From: Agrococcus sp. ProA11 | Lineage (GTDB): Bacteria; Actinomycetota; Actinomycetes; Actinomycetales; Microbacteriaceae | Length of the DNA stretch: 64,000 nucleotides | Reading direction: 5' to 3' | Assembly: GCF_039880525.1 (NCBI RefSeq) | Contig: NZ_CP156989.1 | Span: 1,550,001-1,614,000, forward strand | Shown here: positions 30,809 to 40,488 of the stretch, one piece after another | Layout of the letters: each line of letters begins with the position of its first letter | Numbering within the stretch: the first letter of the stretch is position 1 | Program-made: the position numbers and the translations under genes | The notes under the pieces: generated by a model | The model's database searches: none | Seen by the model: only the letters and a program-made list of their open reading frames with translations | What the model was told of the DNA's origin: nothing

Positions 30809-31159
30809 GTGTCGCCCTACCTCGGTGTGCTCATCGTCATCCTCGTCGGCGTCGCCGCGGTCGCGGGCCTGTACGGCCTCGGCAGGCTCCTGACCATCAC
30901 GCGCGACGTCGCAGAGGTACTGCCGTTCCAGTCCGGCTGGGTGCCCCGCGAGCACGCCCTCTCCCGGTTCCATGCACGTTGGTACCCGATCTCGCTGGTG
31001 TTCCTGGCCTTCGACGTCGAGATGCTCTTCATGTATCCATGGGCGGTGATCGTCGCGGAGCGTGGCGCCGAGGCGATCATCGAGATGTTCGTCTTCCTGG
31101 CGCTGCTGGTCGCCGGCGTGGTGTGGGCAGCCAGGGAGCGGGCGTTCCGATGGGTCTGA
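30809..31159 (+). CDS. nuoA: Complex I-like subunit A
   Basis: 116 aa, GTG start 30809, three transmembrane helices as in NuoA/ND3. The loop PFQSGWVPREHALSRFHARWYPISLVFLAFDVEMLFMYPWA aligns with the NuoA signature (YECGxxP...FxxFDxExxFLxPW) except that the Cys of ECG is Ser, as in many bacteria; FDVE is kept. It is the first gene of a tight operon of membrane complex I subunits. The next gene begins 10 bp inside it. In complex I this loop contacts NuoH and NuoD near the quinone site. Confidence 0.85.
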   Translation: MSPYLGVLIVILVGVAAVAGLYGLGRLLTITRDVAEVLPFQSGWVPREHALSRFHARWYPISLVFLAFDVEMLFMYPWAVIVAERGAEAIIEMFVFLALLVAGVVWAARERAFRWV

Positions 31160-32370
31160 CGCGGTGGGTGACGGATGCGGCGGTCAAGCGCGTGCACGTC
31201 ATGATCGTCGAGGTCCCGGGGTCGGGGCTGCTGCGCATGCGCGCAGAGGCCGCGGTGACGGTCCGCGGCTGGGCGCTCGCGAGCAGCCCAGCGGACACGG
31301 ACGCCATCCTGGTCTGCGGGAGCCCCCATGCTCGGTTGAGCGAGCGGATCGATGCGGTCTGGGATCAGGTGCCTGCGCCCCGCACGTTGGCGACTGTCGC
31401 CGATCCCGCACGCCTTGCGTCGACCATGGACGCGATCGCTGCGGATCTCGCCGACACCGCCGCCCAGCGTGCGCGCGCCCGGAGGCCGCGGACACAGACT
31501 GCTGACACAGCCATGCCAGACGAGCACGCCAGGGAAATGGCTGGCGACGACTCCGACGACGCCGCTGACGACATGGAGCACGCCGGGCACGACATGGACC
31601 ACACCGGGCACGACATGGACCACACCGGGCACGACATCGACCACACCGGGCACGACATCGACCACACCGGGCACGACATCGACCACACCGGGCACGACAT
31701 GGACCACACCGGGCACGACATGGACATGTCGGGCCCCGGCGGCATCCCGCTCGCCGAAGGCGCGAAGGATCGCGACGGTCTCGAGATGGACGCGACGCAC
31801 CTCACCTTGGGCCCGATCCTCGCCGACTGGCCAGCGGCACTCGTGCTGCATTGCACGTTGCACGGCGACGTCGTCGCTGACGCGGAGGTCGAGTGGTGGG
31901 GAGTCGATGAGCCATCGGACGCATCCGTCCTCGACGAGGCGGCGCGCGCGTGCGACGCGGCATCTCGCGTGCTCGCCGTCGCCGGCTGGGATCCGATGGC
32001 CGCTCGCGTGCGGCGCATCCGCAACGACATCCTCGGGGGCGTGCCGACCGACCGGATCCTCTCCCGGCTGACTGTGGTCATGCGACGGATCGAGCGATCG
32101 CGCACCCTTGCATGGACCACGAGCGACGTCGCGCGGGATGCGGGGGACCCGCGCCGCGCTCTCATGGACTGGCTCCGCGCCTGCAGCGCGCTGCTCGAAC
32201 CTGTGGCGGCCTCGCCCATCTTGCGGCCGAAGCCTGCTCGCGACGCCGACGCGACCGCCGACGCGATCCGCAGCGCCGTCGTCGGGCACGAGCTCTCGGC
32301 CGTCCGTCTGCTCGTCGCATCGCTCGGGCTGGACCACGCGATCACACGAGAGGCGGCCGCCCATGAATGA
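31150..32370 (+). CDS. His/Met/Asp-repeat protein in place of NuoB-NuoD
   Basis: 406 aa, ATG 31150 overlapping nuoA by 10 bp. Residues 15-95 resemble the NuoB/HycG core: VHVMIVEVPGSGLLRMRAE, then ADTDAILVCGSP, IDAVWDQVPAPRTLATVADPA, matching the DVLLVxGxxT...VYxQxPEPR...xGxCA pattern. The cluster cysteines are gone (GSCNGCD-like becomes PGSGLLR). Residues 146-194 are seven heptads GHD(M/I)DHT, a likely Cu/Zn/Ni-binding region. Residues 210-400 begin LTLGPILADWPAALVLHCTLHGDVVADAEVEWWG, reminiscent of the NuoD/HycE N terminus, then a helical part with RRIERSRTLAWT. I infer a redox-dead NuoB-NuoD-like fusion carrying a metal-binding insert; a wholly new protein is the alternative. Confidence 0.6.
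   Translation: MGLTRWVTDAAVKRVHVMIVEVPGSGLLRMRAEAAVTVRGWALASSPADTDAILVCGSPHARLSERIDAVWDQVPAPRTLATVADPARLASTMDAIAADLADTAAQRARARRPRTQTADTAMPDEHAREMAGDDSDDAADDMEHAGHDMDHTGHDMDHTGHDIDHTGHDIDHTGHDIDHTGHDMDHTGHDMDMSGPGGIPLAEGAKDRDGLEMDATHLTLGPILADWPAALVLHCTLHGDVVADAEVEWWGVDEPSDASVLDEAARACDAASRVLAVAGWDPMAARVRRIRNDILGGVPTDRILSRLTVVMRRIERSRTLAWTTSDVARDAGDPRRALMDWLRACSALLEPVAASPILRPKPARDADATADAIRSAVVGHELSAVRLLVASLGLDHAITREAAAHE
31585..31731 (+). repeat. 21-bp in-frame repeat encoding GHD(M/I)DHT
   Basis: Seven consecutive 21-bp units (GGGCACGACATGGACCACAC and variants with ATC for ATG) encode His-Asp-Met/Ile-Asp-His heptads. The near-identity of units suggests recent expansion by slippage. Confidence 0.9.
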
Positions 32371-33304
32371 CGTGGCTGCCGTCGTCGCAACTGTGCTCGC
32401 GGTGGCCGCGGGCCTCGGCGCTGTCGCGTGGGCGACGGCTGCGGCGAACGCGATGTTGGACGCTCGCTCAGCCGGTGCGCCCGTCGCCGCCGCGGCAGCG
32501 GCACCCGTGCGGGAGGTGAGCCGGCTCCTGCGTCAGCAGCGTCGCACGCTGCTCGGCGCAGACTCGCTGCTGTGGCGCATCGCGGGTGCGGGCCTCATCG
32601 TCACGGCGATGCTGAAGCTGCTCGTCATCCCGTTCGGCCCGTTCGTGCTCGCCGACCTGCCGGTTGGCCTCGTCTGGTTCAACGCCATGGACGTGCTGCT
32701 GTGGGTGCTGTGGTGGCTGCTCGGATGGGGCGCCAACAGCGGATGGTCGCTCGTGGGCGGCTACCGATTCCTCGCGCTGGCGCTCTCGTACGAGCTGCCG
32801 CTGATGTTCGCGCTCACTGCGCCGGCGATCGCCGCGCAGAGCCTGCGCATGCTCGACCTGCAGAGCGCGCAGGAGCAGGTGTGGTTCGTCGTCTGGATGC
32901 CCGTCGCGTTCCTGATCTTCGCGGCATCCGTGGTGGCGTTCTCGTCATGGGGGCCGTTCCAGACCGCGATGAGCGGTGACATCGCCTCCGGCGTTCTGGC
33001 CGAGCTCAGCAGCGTCGACCGGCTGCTCGTGCTCGTAGGTCGGTACACGGTGCTGGTGGCCGGGGCCGCCTTCGCCGTGCCGCTGTTCCTCGGGGGCGGG
33101 AGCGGTCCGTGGCTGCCGCCTGCGGCGTGGGTGCTCATCAAGACGCTGCTGGTGCTCGCGGGGATGCTGCTGGTCCGACGGCTCTTCCCCATGATCCGGC
33201 CCGATCGGCTCGCCTGGCTCGCGTGGGTCGTCATCCTGCCGGCGACCATCGTGCAGGTGGCGGTCGTCGCCGTGATCGTCGGCACGAACGAAGGTGCGCT
33301 GTGA
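32363..33304 (+). CDS. nuoH: Complex I-like subunit H
   Basis: 313 aa, about eight transmembrane helices, ATG overlapping the previous stop by 8 bp. VREVSRLLRQQRRTL near residue 50 resembles the group 4 hydrogenase HycD/EchB form (QPYRDLLRLLRK) more than NuoH. GGYRFLALALSYELPLMFAL is the conserved NuoH/HycD block. The acidic quinone loop of NuoH (RAPFDLPEAEQELVAG) is replaced by GPFQTAMSGDIASGVLAE, so the conserved Asp/Glu network there is mostly lost. In complex I this subunit forms the quinone tunnel and E-channel. Next gene follows by a TGATG overlap. Confidence 0.82.
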   Translation: MNDVAAVVATVLAVAAGLGAVAWATAAANAMLDARSAGAPVAAAAAAPVREVSRLLRQQRRTLLGADSLLWRIAGAGLIVTAMLKLLVIPFGPFVLADLPVGLVWFNAMDVLLWVLWWLLGWGANSGWSLVGGYRFLALALSYELPLMFALTAPAIAAQSLRMLDLQSAQEQVWFVVWMPVAFLIFAASVVAFSSWGPFQTAMSGDIASGVLAELSSVDRLLVLVGRYTVLVAGAAFAVPLFLGGGSGPWLPPAAWVLIKTLLVLAGMLLVRRLFPMIRPDRLAWLAWVVILPATIVQVAVVAVIVGTNEGAL

Positions 33305-33888
33305 TGTTGACCGCCGTGCTGTTCTGGGTGCTCGGGATCGTCGCCGTCGCCAGCGGCATCGCGGTGTTCGTCGTCAACTCGATGGCGCGAGCCACCTACG
33401 CCCTCGCCGTCTCCTTCGTGTGCGTCGGCGCGATCCTGCTGCTGCTCGACCTGGACTACCTCGGCGTGATCACCATCCTGATGATGCTCATGGAGATGGC
33501 GATCATGGGCGTGTTCATGGTGATGTTCATGGGAATGAACCCGGCGCTGATGCCGATGGACATGACGCACAGCAAGCGCCGGTCGATGGCGATCGCGGTC
33601 GGCGTGTTCATCCTGCTCGCCGTGGCGGTGCTCGTCATCCCCTGGCCATCCCGCACGGGCGACCCGGCAGCAGATCTGACCAGGTCGCTGGGCGAGGCGA
33701 TCATGGGCTCGAAGATGCTGGTGATGCTGATCGTCAGCCCCGTGCTCTTCGCGACCATCGTGGCCGCGCTCGTGCTGGCCAATCCGCACAGCCGGTCGGC
33801 CGGGGGCGACGAGGCGCCCAGCGGTACCGCAGCGCACGACGGTCATGGCCACGCCGAGGCGCAGGATGCCGGAGGAGACTCGCGATGA
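33304..33888 (+). CDS. nuoJ: Complex I-like subunit J, Met-rich
   Basis: 194 aa. Five helices; TYALAVSFVCVGAILLLLDLDYLGVITILMMLM matches NuoJ TM2-TM3 (LxAxFLGVVQIIVYVGAI). The following ILMMLMEMAIMGVFMVMFMG and NPALMPMDMTHSKR are strikingly rich in Met, more than in ordinary NuoJ. The C-terminal tail ends AAHDGHGHAEAQD with clustered His. Both patterns suit copper(I)/copper(II) contact, in keeping with the neighbouring His-repeat protein. Translationally coupled to nuoH and nuoK. Confidence 0.82.
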   Translation: MLTAVLFWVLGIVAVASGIAVFVVNSMARATYALAVSFVCVGAILLLLDLDYLGVITILMMLMEMAIMGVFMVMFMGMNPALMPMDMTHSKRRSMAIAVGVFILLAVAVLVIPWPSRTGDPAADLTRSLGEAIMGSKMLVMLIVSPVLFATIVAALVLANPHSRSAGGDEAPSGTAAHDGHGHAEAQDAGGDSR

Positions 33889-34187
33889 CGCTCGAAGTGG
33901 TGCTCCTCGTGGCGGCCGCGCTGTTCGCGGTCGGCCTGTACGGTGCCCTGTCGCAGCAGGTGGTCGTGATGGTGATGATGGGCATCGAGCTGATGGTCAA
34001 CGGCGTGCTCCTTGCCGCCGGAGGGCTCTGGTGGTTCCTCGCACCCACGCCCGATGGCCAGACCCTGCTCATCGTCGTCCTCGCTGCGATGACGGTCGAG
34101 ATGGCGATGGGCTTCGCCGTCGCGACGATCGTCCATCGGTCCCGCGGATCGGACATGATCGACTCGGCGACGGAACTGGGCGGATGA
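33885..34187 (+). CDS. nuoK: Complex I-like subunit K
   Basis: 100 aa, three helices, the usual NuoK length. Both buried Glu of the proton path appear kept: MMGIELMVNGVLLAAGGL (helix 2) and AAMTVEMAMGFAVATIVH (helix 3). This is evidence that the proton-conducting core of the complex is functional. ATGA overlaps join it to nuoJ and nuoL. It also resembles MrpC of Na+/H+ antiporters, but the surrounding genes support NuoK. Confidence 0.88.
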   Translation: MTLEVVLLVAAALFAVGLYGALSQQVVVMVMMGIELMVNGVLLAAGGLWWFLAPTPDGQTLLIVVLAAMTVEMAMGFAVATIVHRSRGSDMIDSATELGG

Positions 34188-36097
34188 GTCCCCTGCTCCT
34201 CGCGCTCATCGCGCTCCCCGCAGCGGCGGGCGTGGGCCTGCTGCTCGGCGGTCGACGCGCCGACCGCATCGCGCCAGCGACGTCGATCGCGGTGACCGCG
34301 CTCGCCCTGATCGCCGCGATCGCCGCCGCGGTCACCCGTCCGATGTCCGACGCGCCGTTCATCGTGGGCAGCGGAGCGACCCTCGCTGTCGATGGGCTCT
34401 CCGCGGTGCTGCTGCCGACGATCGCCACCGTCGCGCTGCTCGTCCTGATCATCGCCGTCGCGGAACGCACCGAGCCGGAAGCTCGGTTCCATGGCCTGAT
34501 GCTGGTGTTCGTCGCCGCCGTGTTCGTGACGGTGACCTCCACGTCGCTCGTGTCGCTGCTGGCCGCGTGGGAGATCATGGGTGCGACCTCCTACGCACTG
34601 ATCGGCTTCCACTGGCGGAGCGCGCGCGCTGTGCCCGCCGGTCTCGTCGCGTTCAGCGTGACCCGTGCCGCTGACATCGGGCTCTACCTGGCGGCGGGTG
34701 TGGCGGTCATCGCGGGTGTCGGCTGGCAGCTCGACGACCTGCGAGGCGCCCCCGAACCATGGCTGTCTCTGATCGCAGCCGGCGTGCTGATCGCCGGTCT
34801 CGGGAAGGCCGCGCAGCTGCCGTTCAGCTTCTGGCTGTCCCGCGCGATGGAGGGGCCCAGCCCCGTGAGCGCCCTGCTGCACTCGGCGGCGATGGTCGCG
34901 ATGGGTGGCTACCTGCTGCTGCGGCTGAGTCCGCTGCTGCTCGCCACCGAATGGGCGGGATGGGCGGCCGCCTGGATCGGTGCGGCCACGGCCATCGTGC
35001 TGGGCGTGGTCGCCGTCGCCCAGACCGATCTCAAGCAGCTCCTCGCGGCCTCCACTGCGGCGCAGCTGGGGTTCGTGGCGCTCGCCGCCGGGATCGGTGC
35101 GACGGCCAGCGGCACTGCGCAGCTGATCGCCCACGCCTCCACGAAGGCGCTGCTCTTCCTCGTCGCAGGGCTCTGGCTGGCGGCGACCGGCACCAAGCAG
35201 CTGCAGGCGCTGCGCGGCGTGGGCCGCCGCTGGCCCCTGGTCGGGGTGACCTTCCTGATCGGGGCCCTCGCACTGGCTGGCATCCCGCCGCTGTCGCTGT
35301 GGCTGACGAAGGACGCCGTGCTCGCAGGCGCGCTCGAAGCGAGCCCCGCACTCTATGCGGCGGGGCTCGTGGGAGCGGTGCTGTCGGCGGCCTACTCGGC
35401 GAAGATCATCGCCGTCGCGTGGGCGCCAGTGCAGGTGGAGCGGCGCGAGACCGGCTGGGATCACGAGCACCGGGGCACCCGGCGCGTCCCCGCGGCGGCG
35501 CTCGGCCCGCTCGTGATCCTCGCCATCGGTGCAACGGTGCTCGGGGTGCTCGCTGCGCCGGGGCTGGACGGACCATTCCGCGCGGCGCTCGGCGTCGCAG
35601 CGCAGCCGCACAGCACCATCGCCGAACTCATTGCCTCGGCCGTGCTCGCCGTCATCGTCGGCCTGATCGTCCTCCGGTACCGGCTGCCGGGCATCCCTGG
35701 CGCAGCGGTCTGGTTCGGCCTCGAGCGAGCCGCCGCAGGTCTGGTCGGTCGCCCGACGGAGGCGACGGCGGCAGCGCTCGCCCGCTTCGACAGCCGCCTC
35801 GATGCGCTCATCGATCGGTCACCCCGCGCGCTGCAGCAGCTGGCCACGCGCACGGCTCGCAGCGACGAGCTGCTCGACGCGGCGGTCGACCGGTCGCCGC
35901 GAGCGCTCGACCGCGCGGGAAGATCGACCCGCTCCGCCGACGGCGGCGTCGATGCGATGGTCAGCCGCGTGGTGAGCCTCACCCGGCTCGCGGCGCGGGG
36001 GGCTCGTCGGTCCCAGACCGGTCGCATCGCCGACTACTACGCCGTCGGAGCGGTTGCCGCGGCCGCATTCATCGTCCTGTTGATCGTTGTGAGGTAG
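34184..36097 (+). CDS. nuoL: Complex I-like subunit L (antiporter-like)
   Basis: 637 aa. Key antiporter residues are present: SLLAAWEIMGATSYALIGFHW (Glu of helix 5), GLGKAAQLPFSFWLSRAMEGPSPVSALLHSAAMV (Lys of helix 7) and AQTDLKQLLAASTAAQLGF (Lys of helix 8). The C terminus is long (RFDSRLDALIDRSPRALQQL and QTGRIADYYAVGAVAAAAFI), matching the NuoL lateral helix HL and last membrane helix, although its linker is charged and repetitive (two DRSPRAL copies). The HL feature marks a true complex I-type NuoL rather than MrpA/DabB. Confidence 0.9.
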   Translation: MSPLLLALIALPAAAGVGLLLGGRRADRIAPATSIAVTALALIAAIAAAVTRPMSDAPFIVGSGATLAVDGLSAVLLPTIATVALLVLIIAVAERTEPEARFHGLMLVFVAAVFVTVTSTSLVSLLAAWEIMGATSYALIGFHWRSARAVPAGLVAFSVTRAADIGLYLAAGVAVIAGVGWQLDDLRGAPEPWLSLIAAGVLIAGLGKAAQLPFSFWLSRAMEGPSPVSALLHSAAMVAMGGYLLLRLSPLLLATEWAGWAAAWIGAATAIVLGVVAVAQTDLKQLLAASTAAQLGFVALAAGIGATASGTAQLIAHASTKALLFLVAGLWLAATGTKQLQALRGVGRRWPLVGVTFLIGALALAGIPPLSLWLTKDAVLAGALEASPALYAAGLVGAVLSAAYSAKIIAVAWAPVQVERRETGWDHEHRGTRRVPAAALGPLVILAIGATVLGVLAAPGLDGPFRAALGVAAQPHSTIAELIASAVLAVIVGLIVLRYRLPGIPGAAVWFGLERAAAGLVGRPTEATAAALARFDSRLDALIDRSPRALQQLATRTARSDELLDAAVDRSPRALDRAGRSTRSADGGVDAMVSRVVSLTRLAARGARRSQTGRIADYYAVGAVAAAAFIVLLIVVR

Positions 36098-36101
36098 CCC
36101 T

Positions 36102-37589
36102 GTGCTCAGCATTGTCATCTTCCTGCCGGTGGCTGTCGGCATCGTGCTCGCCCTGCTCCCCCGGCTCTCGCCATCCGCGGCGCGCTGGACATGGCTGCTC
36201 ACGACAGTCGTCGATCTCGCCCTCATCGTCGCGGTCTCGGTCGCCGGGCCGACCGGCGACAACGGCCTGGTCGCGGAGGAGCAGCTCGCGTGGATGCCAG
36301 GCGTCGGCACCAGCTATCACATCGGCATCGACGGCTTCTCGATCCCGCTCATGCTCCTCACCGGCGTGATCTTCGTCGCCAGCGCGCTGTGGTCGATGCG
36401 AGTCGACGACCGCCCACGGGCGCAGGCCGCCCTGTTCCTTTTCCTGCAGACCACGTGCCTGGGTGTCTTCGCCGCGCAGGACCTGATCCTCTTCTTCCTC
36501 TGGTTCGACCTGTCGATCGTCGGCATGTACTTCGTGATCGCAGGCTGGGGTCACGGCGACGCGCGACGCTCTGCGCTGAAGTTCTTCCTGTACACCTTCC
36601 TCGGGTCGCTGGCGCTGCTCCTCGGCTTCATCGGGCTCTACCTGCACTCTGCGCCGCACACGTTCGACATGGTCGAGCTGTCGCAGGCCGGCGCCTTCAC
36701 CGGCGACGCCCTGGCCGGGGGCCTGATCCTCGTCGCCGTGGTGATCGGGCTGGCGATCAAGACTCCCACCTTCCCCTTCCACTCCTGGCTGCCACCGGCG
36801 CACACCGACGCCCCCAGCATCGGATCGGTCGTGCTCGCCGCAGTGATGCTGAAGATGGGCACCTACGGATTCGTGCGGATCGCGATGCCGATGCTCCCTG
36901 ATGCTTGGCGAGCCGGAGCATGGATCATCGTCGCCGTCGGCATCGTGTCGGTGCTCTACGGCGCCCTGGTGGCGCTGGCGCAGACCGACATCAAGCGGAT
37001 GATCGCATTCACGTCGATCAACCACATGGGATACGTGATCCTTGCCGTCGGAGCCGCCGGCATCCTGGCGCCCGACAGCGAGCAGGCACAGCAGCTCGCG
37101 CTCACGGGCGCGACGATCCAGATGGTGTCGCACGGCCTCATCACCGGCGCGCTCTTCCTGCTGGCGGGGGTGTTCTGGGAGCGCACCGGCAACTACGACC
37201 TGCGGGAGTACGGAGGACTGGCCTCGCGCGCGCCTCGCTTCGCGGGATTCTTCGCTGTCGCCGCGTTCGCCTCGCTGGGCCTGCCGGGCTTCAGCGGGTT
37301 CATCGCGGAGTTCCAGATCTTCACCGGCAGCATCGGTTCGACCATGTGGGCGGCGTTGGCCCTTCCCGGCATCCTCATCGTGGCCGTGCTGTTTCTGCGC
37401 ACGTTCCAGCGAGTCTTCACCGGTGGCGAGGCCGGCCTCACGCCCGACTTCGCTGACCTTCGGCGCCACGAGTCGGTGCCGCTCGTGCTGCTGCTGGGCT
37501 TGGCGGTGGTCATCGGCATCGTTCCTGGCCCGCTCATCGAGATCGTCGCACCCGCTGCTGAACAGCTGCTCGGCTTGCTCAGCCCATGA
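36102..37589 (+). CDS. nuoM: Complex I-like subunit M (antiporter-like)
   Basis: 495 aa, GTG start 36102. AIKTPTFPFHSWLPPAHTDAPSIGSVVLAAVMLKMGTYGFVRI-type region carries the helix 7 Lys, and ALAQTDIKRMIAFTSINHMGYV the helix 8 Lys. The helix 5 Glu of the FWEL motif is Asp here (FFLWFDLSIVGMYFVIAGWG), a conservative change. Fourteen helices predicted by eye. It conducts protons in complex I. Ends in an ATGATG overlap with nuoN. Confidence 0.9.
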   Translation: MLSIVIFLPVAVGIVLALLPRLSPSAARWTWLLTTVVDLALIVAVSVAGPTGDNGLVAEEQLAWMPGVGTSYHIGIDGFSIPLMLLTGVIFVASALWSMRVDDRPRAQAALFLFLQTTCLGVFAAQDLILFFLWFDLSIVGMYFVIAGWGHGDARRSALKFFLYTFLGSLALLLGFIGLYLHSAPHTFDMVELSQAGAFTGDALAGGLILVAVVIGLAIKTPTFPFHSWLPPAHTDAPSIGSVVLAAVMLKMGTYGFVRIAMPMLPDAWRAGAWIIVAVGIVSVLYGALVALAQTDIKRMIAFTSINHMGYVILAVGAAGILAPDSEQAQQLALTGATIQMVSHGLITGALFLLAGVFWERTGNYDLREYGGLASRAPRFAGFFAVAAFASLGLPGFSGFIAEFQIFTGSIGSTMWAALALPGILIVAVLFLRTFQRVFTGGEAGLTPDFADLRRHESVPLVLLLGLAVVIGIVPGPLIEIVAPAAEQLLGLLSP

Positions 37590-38995
37590 TGCCGATGTCG
37601 ATGAACTACCTGGCGCTCGTCCCCGAGGCCGTGCTGCTCGCTGCCGCAGTGACGGTGCTGCTGGCCGGCAGCTTCCTGCCTGGTCGGCGCCGGGGAGTGG
37701 TGCGCTGGTTGACGCTGGGAGCGCTCGTGGTCAGTCCGGCTGCAGCACTGGCTGCCAGCGGAGGGCCCGACGATCCCATCTTCACCGGCACCTACGTCGT
37801 CGACGCCTCGACCACGCTCGCGCGCGTGCTCGCGCCCCTCTGCACTGCGGTCGTCGTCATGATCGGACGGCAGGAGTTCCTGGGCGCTGCGCGTGAGTCG
37901 GAGTCCTACACGCTGCTCCTGCTCGCAACGCTCGGCACGGTCGTGATGGGCGGCGGCACCGATCTGCTGGTGCTGATCGCCGCGTTCCTGCTGTCGAGCA
38001 TCCCCCTCTACGCACTGATCGGCATCCGTCGGTCGCCGCGCGCAGCCGAAGCGACGCTCAAGACGTACCTGATGGGGGCGCTCTTCGGCGTGCTGCTGCT
38101 CGCGGGCGCGGCGCTCCTGACCGCGCTCGCCGGCACGAGCAGCTACGTGAGCATGCAGAGCGCCCTCGCGGCCGCCCCGACCTCCGCCGTCATCATCGGA
38201 GCCGTCGCGGTCATCACCGGTCTGCTGTTCAAGGCGGGCGCCGTCCCCGGGCACTTCTGGGTGCCCGATGCCACCGAGGCCGCCGGCACAGCCGTGGGAG
38301 CATTCGTCACGACGGTTCCCAAGATCGGTGCTCTCGTCGCGATCATCCGCCTGGTGGGTGCGCTGCCGTCCACCTTCGATGTGCCGCTGCTCGTCGCGGT
38401 GCTCGCGGCGCTGAGCATGACCGTCGGCAATCTTGCCGCCCTCCTGCAGCACGATGTGCGCCGACTGCTGGGCTGGTCGACGGTGAGCCAGGTCGGGTAC
38501 CTGCTGATGCCGGTCGCTGTCGTCGGCGGCGCCGCTGCCGCGCCCACGAGCCTGCTCGCGTATCTCGTGCTCTACAGCGTCTCGAACCTGACGCTCTTCG
38601 GTGCTCTCGCCGCGCTGCCGGGACGCGGGCGCATCGAAGACTTCGCCGGCACGGCGCGCCAGCATCCCTGGCTGACTGCCACCATCGTGGTCGGCGCGCT
38701 CAGTCTGGTGGGAACGCCACCGACCGCGGTCTTCTTCGGCAAGCTCGCCGTCTTCGCTGCAACGTGGGACGGCGGACTCGTGTGGCTGGTGGTGGTCGCT
38801 GCCGTCAACACGGTCGTGAGCCTCTTCTACTACCTCCGACTCTTCACTGCGCCGTTCCGCGCGATCCCGGAGGGCGCGGCGCGCACCGCGCTCCCAACTG
38901 CGCACCCGACGGTGCAGGCGACCGCGCTGCTGCTCGCCGCCACGGTGCTGCTCGCAGGGTTCGCGTCGGTGATGCTCGCCCCGCAACTACTCTGA
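37586..38995 (+). CDS. nuoN: Complex I-like subunit N (antiporter-like)
   Basis: 469 aa. GLLFKAGAVPGHFWVPDATEAAGTAVGAF is the NuoN helix 7-8 signature with its Lys. The helix 5 Glu (GLELLSLPLY in NuoN) is missing: LIAAFLLSSIPLYALIGI. The helix 8 Lys position reads QHDVRRLLGWSTVSQVGYLL with Arg. So this subunit may be a weak or altered proton path. It is the last gene of the complex I-like operon; no clear terminator follows within 200 bp. Confidence 0.88.
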   Translation: MMPMSMNYLALVPEAVLLAAAVTVLLAGSFLPGRRRGVVRWLTLGALVVSPAAALAASGGPDDPIFTGTYVVDASTTLARVLAPLCTAVVVMIGRQEFLGAARESESYTLLLLATLGTVVMGGGTDLLVLIAAFLLSSIPLYALIGIRRSPRAAEATLKTYLMGALFGVLLLAGAALLTALAGTSSYVSMQSALAAAPTSAVIIGAVAVITGLLFKAGAVPGHFWVPDATEAAGTAVGAFVTTVPKIGALVAIIRLVGALPSTFDVPLLVAVLAALSMTVGNLAALLQHDVRRLLGWSTVSQVGYLLMPVAVVGGAAAAPTSLLAYLVLYSVSNLTLFGALAALPGRGRIEDFAGTARQHPWLTATIVVGALSLVGTPPTAVFFGKLAVFAATWDGGLVWLVVVAAVNTVVSLFYYLRLFTAPFRAIPEGAARTALPTAHPTVQATALLLAATVLLAGFASVMLAPQLL

Positions 38996-39193
38996 GCGGC
39001 CCGGCGCCCCGCGCGGATGGATGCAGCGTGGTCGCCGGCTGCACGTCCTGCGATCCGACATTCCCAGGAAACCGGCTCGTCGTCCGCTATCGTCGTCCGC
39101 AACGTGCGGCCGCTTCGCCGGCTGCAGTTGAGCCCGGATGCCGCTCGTAGACGGTGAGCGGCAAGCCGGTACCCCATCGGGCGGGAGGTGAGC

Positions 39194-39640
39194 ATGTCGC
39201 TGATCAGCATCTCTGAACGCCTGCGCAAGCAGGATGCACCTGCCCGTGGTGTGCTGACGATCATCCTCCTGGCCGCCAGCATCATCGTCGGGCTGCTGGC
39301 CATGCACTCCCTCAACATCCATGCGGACGCCGCCGAGCGCCACGACACGGTCGCCGGCACCAGCGACACGGTGGCCGTCTCCGTCCCGCTCGGCGCACAC
39401 AGCGCTGCCGCTGCGACGACGCCGGAGTGCGCAGACTGCGGCGATGATGGCTCCATGGCTTGGATGGCGTGCGTGCTCGCGCTGATCGCCGCGGTGATCC
39501 TCCTGATCGGCCCTCTGCCTCGATGGTGGACCGCCGCCACACGTCCGCACGACAGCGGCGGGCGTGGCGGGTGGCCGGCCCAAGCACAGGCCTTGCCGCC
39601 GCCGCCCTCGCTGACAGTGCTCTGCATCAGCCGCACCTGA
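39194..39640 (+). CDS. DUF6153 family protein
   Basis: 148 aa, ATG 39194 behind GGGAGG. An N-terminal membrane anchor (VLTIILLAASIIVGLLAMHSLNIH) precedes an extracytoplasmic stretch with HDTV and AHSAAAATTPECADCGDDGSMAWMACVLAL, then a second helix (LALIAAVILLIGPLPRWW). The ECADCGDxxSMAWMACVLAL block is the DUF6153 hallmark, a family seen next to copper and DUF305 genes in Actinobacteria. Clustered Cys, His and Met suggest metal handling. Function is unproven. Confidence 0.8.
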   Translation: MSLISISERLRKQDAPARGVLTIILLAASIIVGLLAMHSLNIHADAAERHDTVAGTSDTVAVSVPLGAHSAAAATTPECADCGDDGSMAWMACVLALIAAVILLIGPLPRWWTAATRPHDSGGRGGWPAQAQALPPPPSLTVLCISRT

Positions 39641-39891
39641 TGCTGGCCGCGCCGGCCCTTCCAACGTCGGCAGGCACCGCGGGCGAGCGCTGACGCAAGA
39701 TGCACGCGCTCGCGATCGAGCGAGTCCCGCTTTCGATCCGGGCACGGGCACGGTCGGCTACATCGTCGCGTCCACGACCGGCGTGCTGTGGATGAGCGCG
39801 GTCCCGCGCTCACCGAGCCACCGCGCTTGAGCTGGCAGCCAGCAATGCACGAACGAACCCTTCACCACTGATGGAACCTGGAGAGAGAACA
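39641..39891. other. Intergenic between DUF6153 and DUF305 genes
   Basis: No gene with an RBS seen. A short open stretch at about 39716-39830 reads FDPGTGTVGYIVASTTGVLW in one plus frame and could be a gene remnant, but it is too short to assign. Confidence 0.3.
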
Positions 39892-40488
39892 ATGAGCAAC
39901 CACAACGACGACCACGCCGGCGCTCACGACGAGCAGCGGCAGAAGAACACGTCGGTCAGCATGTACCTCCGTTTCGGCGCGATGATCCTCACCGCCGTCG
40001 TCATCATGTACTTCGTGATGTTCGCCGGCTCCTGGGAGTGGGGTCACATCCGGCTGAGCGAGAGTCGCATCTTCATGGCGCTCACCATGGGCGGCACCAT
40101 GGTCCTCGTCATGCTGGGCTGGATGCTGAGCATGTACAAGAACACCAAAGCGAACATCGCGATCATCGTCGCTGGCGTACTCGTCATCGGCGGAGGCGTG
40201 TTCCTCGACCGCAGCCAGATCACGGTCGATGACACCGCCTTCATGCAGGGCATGATCCCCCACCACTCGCTTGCCATCACGCGATCCGAGCGCGCACAGA
40301 TCCAGGACGTCCGCGTCTGCCAACTCGCGATCGACATCAGCGAAGCGCAGAAGCGTGAGATCCGCGAGATGGACTGGCTGATCAACGACATCGCGGAGAA
40401 CGGCATTGCCGCCACGCCCGAGGAAGCTGCAGATCGACCCGTACCCGACTACGAGGGCACGGCGGATCGCACCTGCCCGACGGAGTGA
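39892..40488 (+). CDS. Membrane-anchored DUF305 protein
   Basis: 198 aa, ATG 39892 behind GGAGAGAG. A His/Asp-rich N terminus (SNHNDDHAGAHDEQ) precedes three helices (LRFGAMILTAVVIMYFVMFA; ALTMGGTMVLVMLGWML; IAIIVAGVLVIGGGVFL). The C-terminal DUF305 domain has the FMQGMIPHHSLAI metal-binding signature and EAQKREIREMDWLINDI. DUF305 proteins are four-helix ferritin-like domains often linked to copper resistance. It follows the complex I-like operon and the DUF6153 gene on the same strand. Confidence 0.88.
   Translation: MSNHNDDHAGAHDEQRQKNTSVSMYLRFGAMILTAVVIMYFVMFAGSWEWGHIRLSESRIFMALTMGGTMVLVMLGWMLSMYKNTKANIAIIVAGVLVIGGGVFLDRSQITVDDTAFMQGMIPHHSLAITRSERAQIQDVRVCQLAIDISEAQKREIREMDWLINDIAENGIAATPEEAADRPVPDYEGTADRTCPTE

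Follow-up and report, generated by a model that had tools for sequence, protein, structure and literature searches.

How the peripheral reaction of complex I is coupled to distant proton movement is a long-standing question. Mrp Na+/H+ antiporters use NuoL/M/N-type and NuoK-type subunits free of redox chemistry, and to our knowledge they have no counterpart of NuoB, NuoD or NuoH. The HMBD module belongs to copper systems, namely CusB-type adaptors and copper P-type ATPases. The Ehr (energy-converting hydrogenase-related) complexes keep the NuoB-type Fe-S cysteines. In the accessible part of PMC6349859, Ehr complexes are described as complex I kin whose catalytic subunit lacks metal ligands and which are suspected to stay redox-active. 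Seven nuo genes have also been reported as a 'partial NDH-1' operon in Salinispora and Kocuria, linked to marine life and interpreted as pumping protons or sodium; the accessible parts of these two papers (PMC3314556, PMC6002675) contain no mention of a fusion gene, a metal arm or a Met-rich NuoJ. A description of the fusion, the arm, a metal role or a Met-rich NuoJ was not found in the open-licence literature searched. In the paper on plasmid pMAH135 (PMC4324632), the words NADH, copper, metal and nuo do not occur, and the accessible parts of PMC8115904 and PMC11877719 hold nothing on the operon. The operon itself has been seen before; its nature as described here, with the fusion, the arm and the Met-rich NuoJ, was not met in the open-licence literature searched.

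In this study, we analysed a stretch of 64,000 nucleotides from Agrococcus sp. ProA11, hereafter the window, which carries an operon of the order nuoA-[B~D]-H-J-K-L-M-N on the plus strand, its genes mostly overlapping by a few bases. The membrane-arm genes and their order are the same as in respiratory complex I (NDH-1), and the two halves of the fusion fold like NuoB and NuoD. Unlike complex I, however, the family lacks an NADH module in its operon, the NuoB cluster ligands and the quinone histidine; its B and D subunits are fused via an arm, and its NuoJ is Met-rich. The seven membrane genes are those of the 'partial NDH-1' operon, to which Salinispora can be likened by gene list alone, while two Kocuria strains in the accessible part of the published table, K. 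polaris CD08-4 and K. marina SO9-6, match our loci L110 and L127 by name. Loss of metal ligands in the catalytic subunit is shared with Ehr, but this family has lost the NuoB-type ligands too. It differs from Mrp in having counterparts of NuoB, NuoD and NuoH, all three. The HMBD module (PF19335) of the copper systems also occurs in the arms of relatives, whereas the transport scaffold differs.

The fusion gene occupies 31150-32370 on the plus strand, with its ATG at 31150 and its TGA at 32368-32370, and overlaps the 3' end of nuoA (30809-31159, plus strand) and the start of nuoH (32363). It encodes 406 aa with no cluster cysteines. The coordinates in the preliminary description, which had assigned the gene to the nuoB-nuoD slot, proved exact, and the gene sits between nuoA and nuoH. 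The N-domain (residues 1-112; 31150-31485, plus strand) is NuoB-like, as had been claimed from a NuoB/HycG motif, but that motif reads ILVCGSP, not VLVCGSP. A Pfam scan of the window protein returned no family at E ≤ 1, and on its own the protein matched NCBIfam nuoB_fam with E 0.0087 and 16 bits (curated cut-off 142.7). The same model was matched by 71 of 78 family members at E ≤ 1 (best 3.9e-5), below curated cut-offs. Because so many members match it, the NuoB resemblance is more than chance. When PDB sequences were compared with a profile of the 78 members, the first 32 rows were NuoB/PSST chains, from E 8e-5. Alignment of the N-domain with NuoB by hhalign gave a probability of 94.4, whereas none of the seven other families compared exceeded 0.2. 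Searches with a 12-member profile hit NuoB genes in other genomes, with E values between 2e-5 and 1e-3 and at about positions 36-87 of the profile, and in genomes also searched with PF01058, 16/16 such matches fell inside PF01058 matches. For one relative, PF01058 gave E 4.3e-5, which falls short of its cut-off.

The fold pointed to the same subunit. The AlphaFold model of the full-length window protein had a pTM of 0.76, and Foldseek against the PDB placed NuoB-type chains of complex I or related hydrogenases in the top 39 rows, with probabilities of 0.97-1.00 and E values from 3.7e-3, none of the 438 matches reaching 0.001; chain identities were taken from the entry title and chain label. 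At four columns, 29/29 canonical NuoB have Cys and 0/78 members do, and the fourth of these columns is a gap in 78/78. The claimed loss of the four cluster cysteines was thus borne out. The single Cys of ILVCGSP aligns to a non-ligand NuoB position. As a member of the NuoB family, the domain has the fold and the central sequence motif and lacks the four [4Fe-4S]-binding cysteines. The canonical NuoB and NuoD profiles were built from 29 sequences each, with truncated ones left out. The named loci are the best 80 of 123 confirmed, retrieved through one N-domain motif, and the fusion alignment (A2) was made without three of the 80 genes: L072 (contig end), L093 (short) and L127 (out of frame in the repeat).

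The C-domain (residues 197-406; 31738-32367, plus strand) has a shrunken NuoD-like fold. The direct hhalign comparison of the window family with NuoD was weak (probability 13.9; next family 2.0). In the PDB profile search, NuoD/NDUFS2 chains appeared for the C half at E 0.57 and up and were outranked by three chains of the DNA-repair protein XPA, which matched around residues 253-311 at E 0.063-0.18. PF00346 was found in 2/78 members (best E 0.0013) and not in the window protein; the Pfam scan of the 78 members gave an unrelated helix-turn-helix family in seven, PF00346 in two and PF01058 in one, all at E > 0.001. The C-domain model had a pTM of 0.80, and its top seven Foldseek rows were NuoCD, MbsL, HycE or NuoD, at weak E values of 0.12-0.45. 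The C-domain alignment (A3) comprised 76 sequences, with L078 and L115 left out.

Deeper relatives were found by a phylum-wide search with a NuoJ profile, which matched 36/396 genomes. In 17 of the 18 stretches fetched, some of them cut by contig ends, a fusion-type middle gene lay between nuoA and nuoH; the weakest match of the 18, L262, was a canonical operon with NuoB. Among ten middle genes of deeper relatives, PF00346 scored over its cut-off in nine and PF01058 below its cut-off in four. Intermediate profiles of 15 sequences (L249 and L251 left out) were then compared with both ends of the chain. For the intermediate C-domain profile, the match was 99.8% with the window family and 99.2% with NuoD over 279 columns; for the intermediate N-domain profile, it was 97.2% with NuoB and 97.1% with the window family. 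No other family exceeded 0.5%. The NuoD link of the C-domain is therefore firm, but only via the intermediates. The quinone His of GPxHP is Leu in 75/76 sequences and Met in 1/76. Thus NuoD sequence and fold are present, by the profile chain and the structure search, and the quinone-site histidine is absent.

The profile and fold searches that had been suggested for the two halves put NuoB on top for the first and NuoD kin on top by fold for the second, and the intermediates tie the latter to NuoD, as had been proposed from its opening residues. Unrelated folds in both predicted halves were looked for, and both returned NuoB/NuoD-type folds. A chance motif is ruled out as the source of the resemblance, because independent sequence and fold searches both give the same subunits. 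These results demonstrate that a fusion of degenerate NuoB and NuoD is encoded in an operon with the whole complex I membrane arm, and its ancestry from NuoB plus NuoD is near certain.

The host genome is a single contig of 2.67 Mb and 99.99% complete. It gave 0 matches to NuoB (PF01058), NuoD (PF00346) or NuoF (PF01512), and the operon lacks NuoC, NuoE, NuoG and NuoI. In a sample of the class that included this genome, NuoB was detected in 59/60 and NuoD in 58/60 genomes. The preliminary description had suggested a redox-dead connecting module with a metal-binding arm. The cysteine-less NuoB~NuoD with its arm stood, but there is no working complex I around it: since the host shows no NuoB, NuoD or NuoF, the quinone site is gone and the A, J and K subunits are remodelled, the fusion is not a redox-dead joint in such a complex. 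It is almost certainly a redox-dead NuoB~NuoD fusion within a metal-linked branch of complex I. Unlike the window host, 12/12 hosts of deeper relatives have canonical NuoB elsewhere, so a role beside true complex I is possible there. 'NADH-quinone oxidoreductase' annotations of such operons are misleading.

Between the two domains lies a His/Met/Asp-rich arm (residues 113-196; 31486-31737, plus strand), disordered in the AlphaFold model with pLDDT < 50 over most of 133-198. It contains a tandem repeat at 31568-31725 (plus strand; period 21 bp, 7.5 copies, 97% match) coding for GHD(M/I)DHT heptads. Seven such heptads had been described; six are exact, but the seventh reads GHDMDMS. Over the 78 members, the arm consists of 17.5% His, 9.6% Met and 22.8% acidic residues, compared to 2.6-2.7% His in both domains. 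At least five His are present in 66/78 arms, and at least five His or at least five Met in 76/78. The repeat varies fast, with seven heptads in the window and 36 MDHS units in the same-genus genome L046. The draft assemblies of L127 (Kocuria marina SO9-6), L035 and L036 show an arm that is frameshifted or N-filled in its repeat, which may be assembly trouble or real slippage. HMBD (PF19335) scored over the Pfam cut-off in 6 of 10 deeper-relative middle genes scanned, and one to three HMBD-like modules of the form CxMH...CxxCGM were seen in 7/16 middle genes that come from elsewhere in the phylum and in 6/9 of those from the Lysobacter class. The middle gene of L257 has nine His. Neither HMBD nor five or more His was present in 11/25 deeper-relative middle genes. 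By eye, a G(E/K/S)GM(M/T)GG..(Y/H/W)GR motif was noticed between the domains of the armless middle genes L248, L250-L256 and L266-L268.

Metal-related genes recur around the operon. In the window, it is followed on the plus strand by a gene for a DUF6153 small membrane protein (39188-39640), a family that recurs near such operons, and by one for a DUF305/CopM-like membrane protein (39871-40488), also a recurrent neighbour. In 81 loci, the neighbours included DUF305 in 26 and a membrane type of it in 18, multicopper oxidase in 20, a BNR-repeat protein, F510_1955-like by name, in 20, ArsR-type regulators in 18, HMA P-type ATPases in 18, CsoR-type repressors in 14 and HMA-domain proteins in 10. 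At least one scored family, ArsR included, was found in 54/80 of the named loci (best 80 of 123), and scored neighbours were not found in 26/80 within the stretch of sequence examined. DUF305 occurred in 16/29 loci (23 genes against 0.45 expected, 51x) and multicopper oxidase in 11/29 (11 genes against 0.43 expected, 26x). This sample of 29 of 80 genomes (30 picked by hand for genus spread after the neighbours had been listed, L066 dropped) is non-random. Some loci carry Zn/Cd-type genes.

The fusion also matched 16 plasmid records, 11 of them mobilizable or conjugative according to PLSDB. Plasmid islands that contain multicopper oxidase, DUF305, a metal regulator and a P-type ATPase were seen. 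A multicopper oxidase lies directly upstream of nuoA on the Arthrobacter FB24 plasmid, and a heavy-metal ATPase holds that position on a Curtobacterium plasmid. On pMAH135, a heavy-metal ATPase is located a few kb off, beyond an IS element. In the Ornithinimicrobium plasmid stretch, one DUF305 gene occurs together with two metal-type regulators, and metal genes were not seen in the Gordonia and Rhodococcus stretches (two of six, with an incomplete gene table).

We next compared the membrane subunits with their canonical counterparts. All genes lie on the plus strand. NuoA (Pfam Oxidored_q4, E 2.6e-23) keeps the D69/E71 pair and has the family-specific residues H49, H55, M72 and M75. NuoH (32363-33304; NADHdh, E 2.1e-43) keeps E144, and its acidic quinone loop is replaced. 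NuoJ (33304-33888, start possibly 33301; Oxidored_q3, E 1.7e-13) is Met-rich at 52-89 and contains E64 and H89. NuoK (33885-34187) keeps E35 and E72 and has new M29, M31, M69, M73 and M75. NuoL (34184-36097) keeps E130, K208, K321 and K376; NuoM (36102-37589) keeps K220, K251 and E403, with D136 in place of the TM5 Glu; NuoN (37586-38995) keeps K159, K246 and K386. In NuoN, K216 is Lys in 60/76 and Glu in 16/76, and the TM5 Glu, present in 13/13 canonical sequences, is lost in 76/76 family members. The membrane arm of A, H, J, K, L, M and N is thus complete, and most of the compared acids and lysines of A, H, K, L, M and N, which we take to form the proton path, are kept. Such a natural homologue, with a whole membrane arm and without redox or quinone residues, isolates the coupling machinery.

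The Met content differed by subunit. Compared to 10-15 canonical actinobacterial sequences per subunit, the Met fraction was raised in NuoJ (0.096 against 0.028), NuoK (0.097 against 0.042) and NuoA (0.050 against 0.022), but not in NuoH (0.026 against 0.034), NuoL (0.017 against 0.035), NuoM (0.022 against 0.029) or NuoN (0.019 against 0.022). Seventeen deeper clusters gave 0.091 for J, 0.087 for K and 0.052 for A. Twelve NuoJ Met columns are kept in 103-107 of 107 sequences; one of them, M74, is shared with canonical NuoJ. The other eleven (27, 60, 61, 65, 68, 72, 76, 78, 85, 87 and 138), together with E64 and H89, recur in 106-107 of the 107 sequences and are absent from 10/10 canonical NuoJ. 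Nine of the eleven fall in segment 52-89, which has 10-13 Met in the family against 1-3 in canonical sequences. The window NuoJ also ends in a short HDGHGHAEA tail, none being seen in 12 aligned relatives.

As the electron-handling parts are lost and metal arms and a Met-rich subunit are gained, the pump machinery may move metal ions such as copper. We suggest, with a probability of about one in two, that this redox-dead complex I transports soft metals driven by the proton motive force. The cytosolic arm would capture a metal ion, and the NuoB~NuoD plug would hand it to the A/H/J/K region. The Met, Glu and His residues of J, K and A may form a soft-metal path at the place of the E-channel of complex I, for which the Met-rich helices are circumstantial evidence. 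Proton flow via L, M and N, where most proton-path residues are kept, would drive the metal step. The cargo and direction are probably Cu(I) and export; copper is preferred over Zn, Ag or Cd on account of the neighbour genes. The broader proposal of a new class of ion-driven metal transporter derived from a gutted complex I, in which capture by the arm replaces electron transfer and protons drive Cu(I) along a Met-lined path, is a tentative one that falls somewhat short of probable. If it is true, the coupling machinery of complex I works without redox chemistry, and if metal is moved, this would be a widespread and often plasmid-borne metal pump driven by the proton motive force. We know of no other system with a pump of this kind. 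Several findings count against soft-metal transport as described here: the arm is not universal, given the 11/25 deeper middle genes above; scored neighbours are missing from 26/80 loci in the sequence examined and metal genes from two of six plasmid stretches; the proton-path residues are not all kept, as the NuoN TM5 Glu shows; one cluster, L041, consists of the fusion and nuoH only, which the metal-path mechanism does not explain; and the hosts of deeper relatives have a canonical NuoB as well. The Zn/Cd-type genes of some loci speak against copper in particular.

The complex could instead serve salt and pH adaptation, working as an Mrp-like Na+(K+)/H+ antiporter or by pumping protons or sodium, with the arm as a regulator or decoration. 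L, M and N keep most of their antiporter-like residues, and the seven nuo genes are listed as a marine adaptation pumping Na+ or H+ in the accessible parts of PMC3314556 and PMC6002675. However, this leaves unexplained why NuoJ has invariant Met, Glu and His residues and why Met enrichment is confined to A, J and K, as well as the HMBD modules and the metal-gene neighbours, and 17/80 named loci (best 80 of 123) are mycobacterial. We consider such a function unlikely. Somewhat more doubtful still is a metal-gated proton conductor or a metal sensor coupled to the proton motive force, in which binding to the arm gates protons and no metal crosses the membrane. The arm does adjoin retained coupling acids, and the proton-path residues of L, M and N are mostly kept, but a ligand set of soft-metal type within a hydrophobic segment suggests metal inside the membrane.

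A third possibility is that metal bound to the arm replaces the Fe-S clusters as a redox centre, so that the complex would still be a redox-driven pump. Such arms could bind redox-active copper, and multicopper oxidases are among the neighbours. The loss of the quinone His in 76/76 and the replaced quinone loop of NuoH, however, argue against it, as do the operon without an NADH or ferredoxin module and the members in which the arm is missing; this explanation is very improbable. Soft-metal transport remains our preferred reading.

The operon is conserved over a wide range. Among relatives, 20/199 genomes matched and 17, the host included, carry the fusion gene; of the three not counted, two have no nuo genes around the match and the third was left out. 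In the class sample, the fusion matched 27/394 genomes at E < 1e-30. The reverse search with NuoJ matched 26/394, all among these 27, so that 26/26 have the fusion; the 27th (G422) has only a fusion fragment. In the named loci (best 80 of 123), nuoA comes before the fusion in 80/80 and all eight genes are in order in 73/80; five of the other seven are cut by a contig end and two lack only a called nuoL. The operon spans two phyla: it recurs in Actinomycetota and also among genomes of the class to which a Lysobacter belongs. In the class of Lysobacter maris, 10/185 genomes matched, that genome included, and a fusion-type gene was present in 10/10 further stretches fetched. A decaying complex I remnant, for which the loss of redox and quinone residues might speak, is ruled out by this two-phylum conservation of the operon, its near-invariant membrane residues and the strong co-occurrence, and its probability is negligible.

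In a NuoM tree of 52 rows, obtained by a quick method with no bootstrap, the 37 fusion-type rows fell on one side of a branch with an SH-aLRT of 99. Nuo2-type operons were rejected as the source, the fusion-type NuoM rows being apart from both canonical Nuo1 and Nuo2. One locus, L041:5016-9465 (G119), may hold a minimal version of the system next to a copper ATPase: after a CsoR-like gene and one for an HMA-type P-type ATPase, both identified by eye, come a short armless fusion and a divergent nuoH, and the stretch contains no further nuo gene. In two Lysobacter species, L077 and L079, an actinobacterial-type operon lies in a GC dip beside a cation-efflux gene (CDF-like, by eye), and these two operons are likely the result of cross-phylum transfer.
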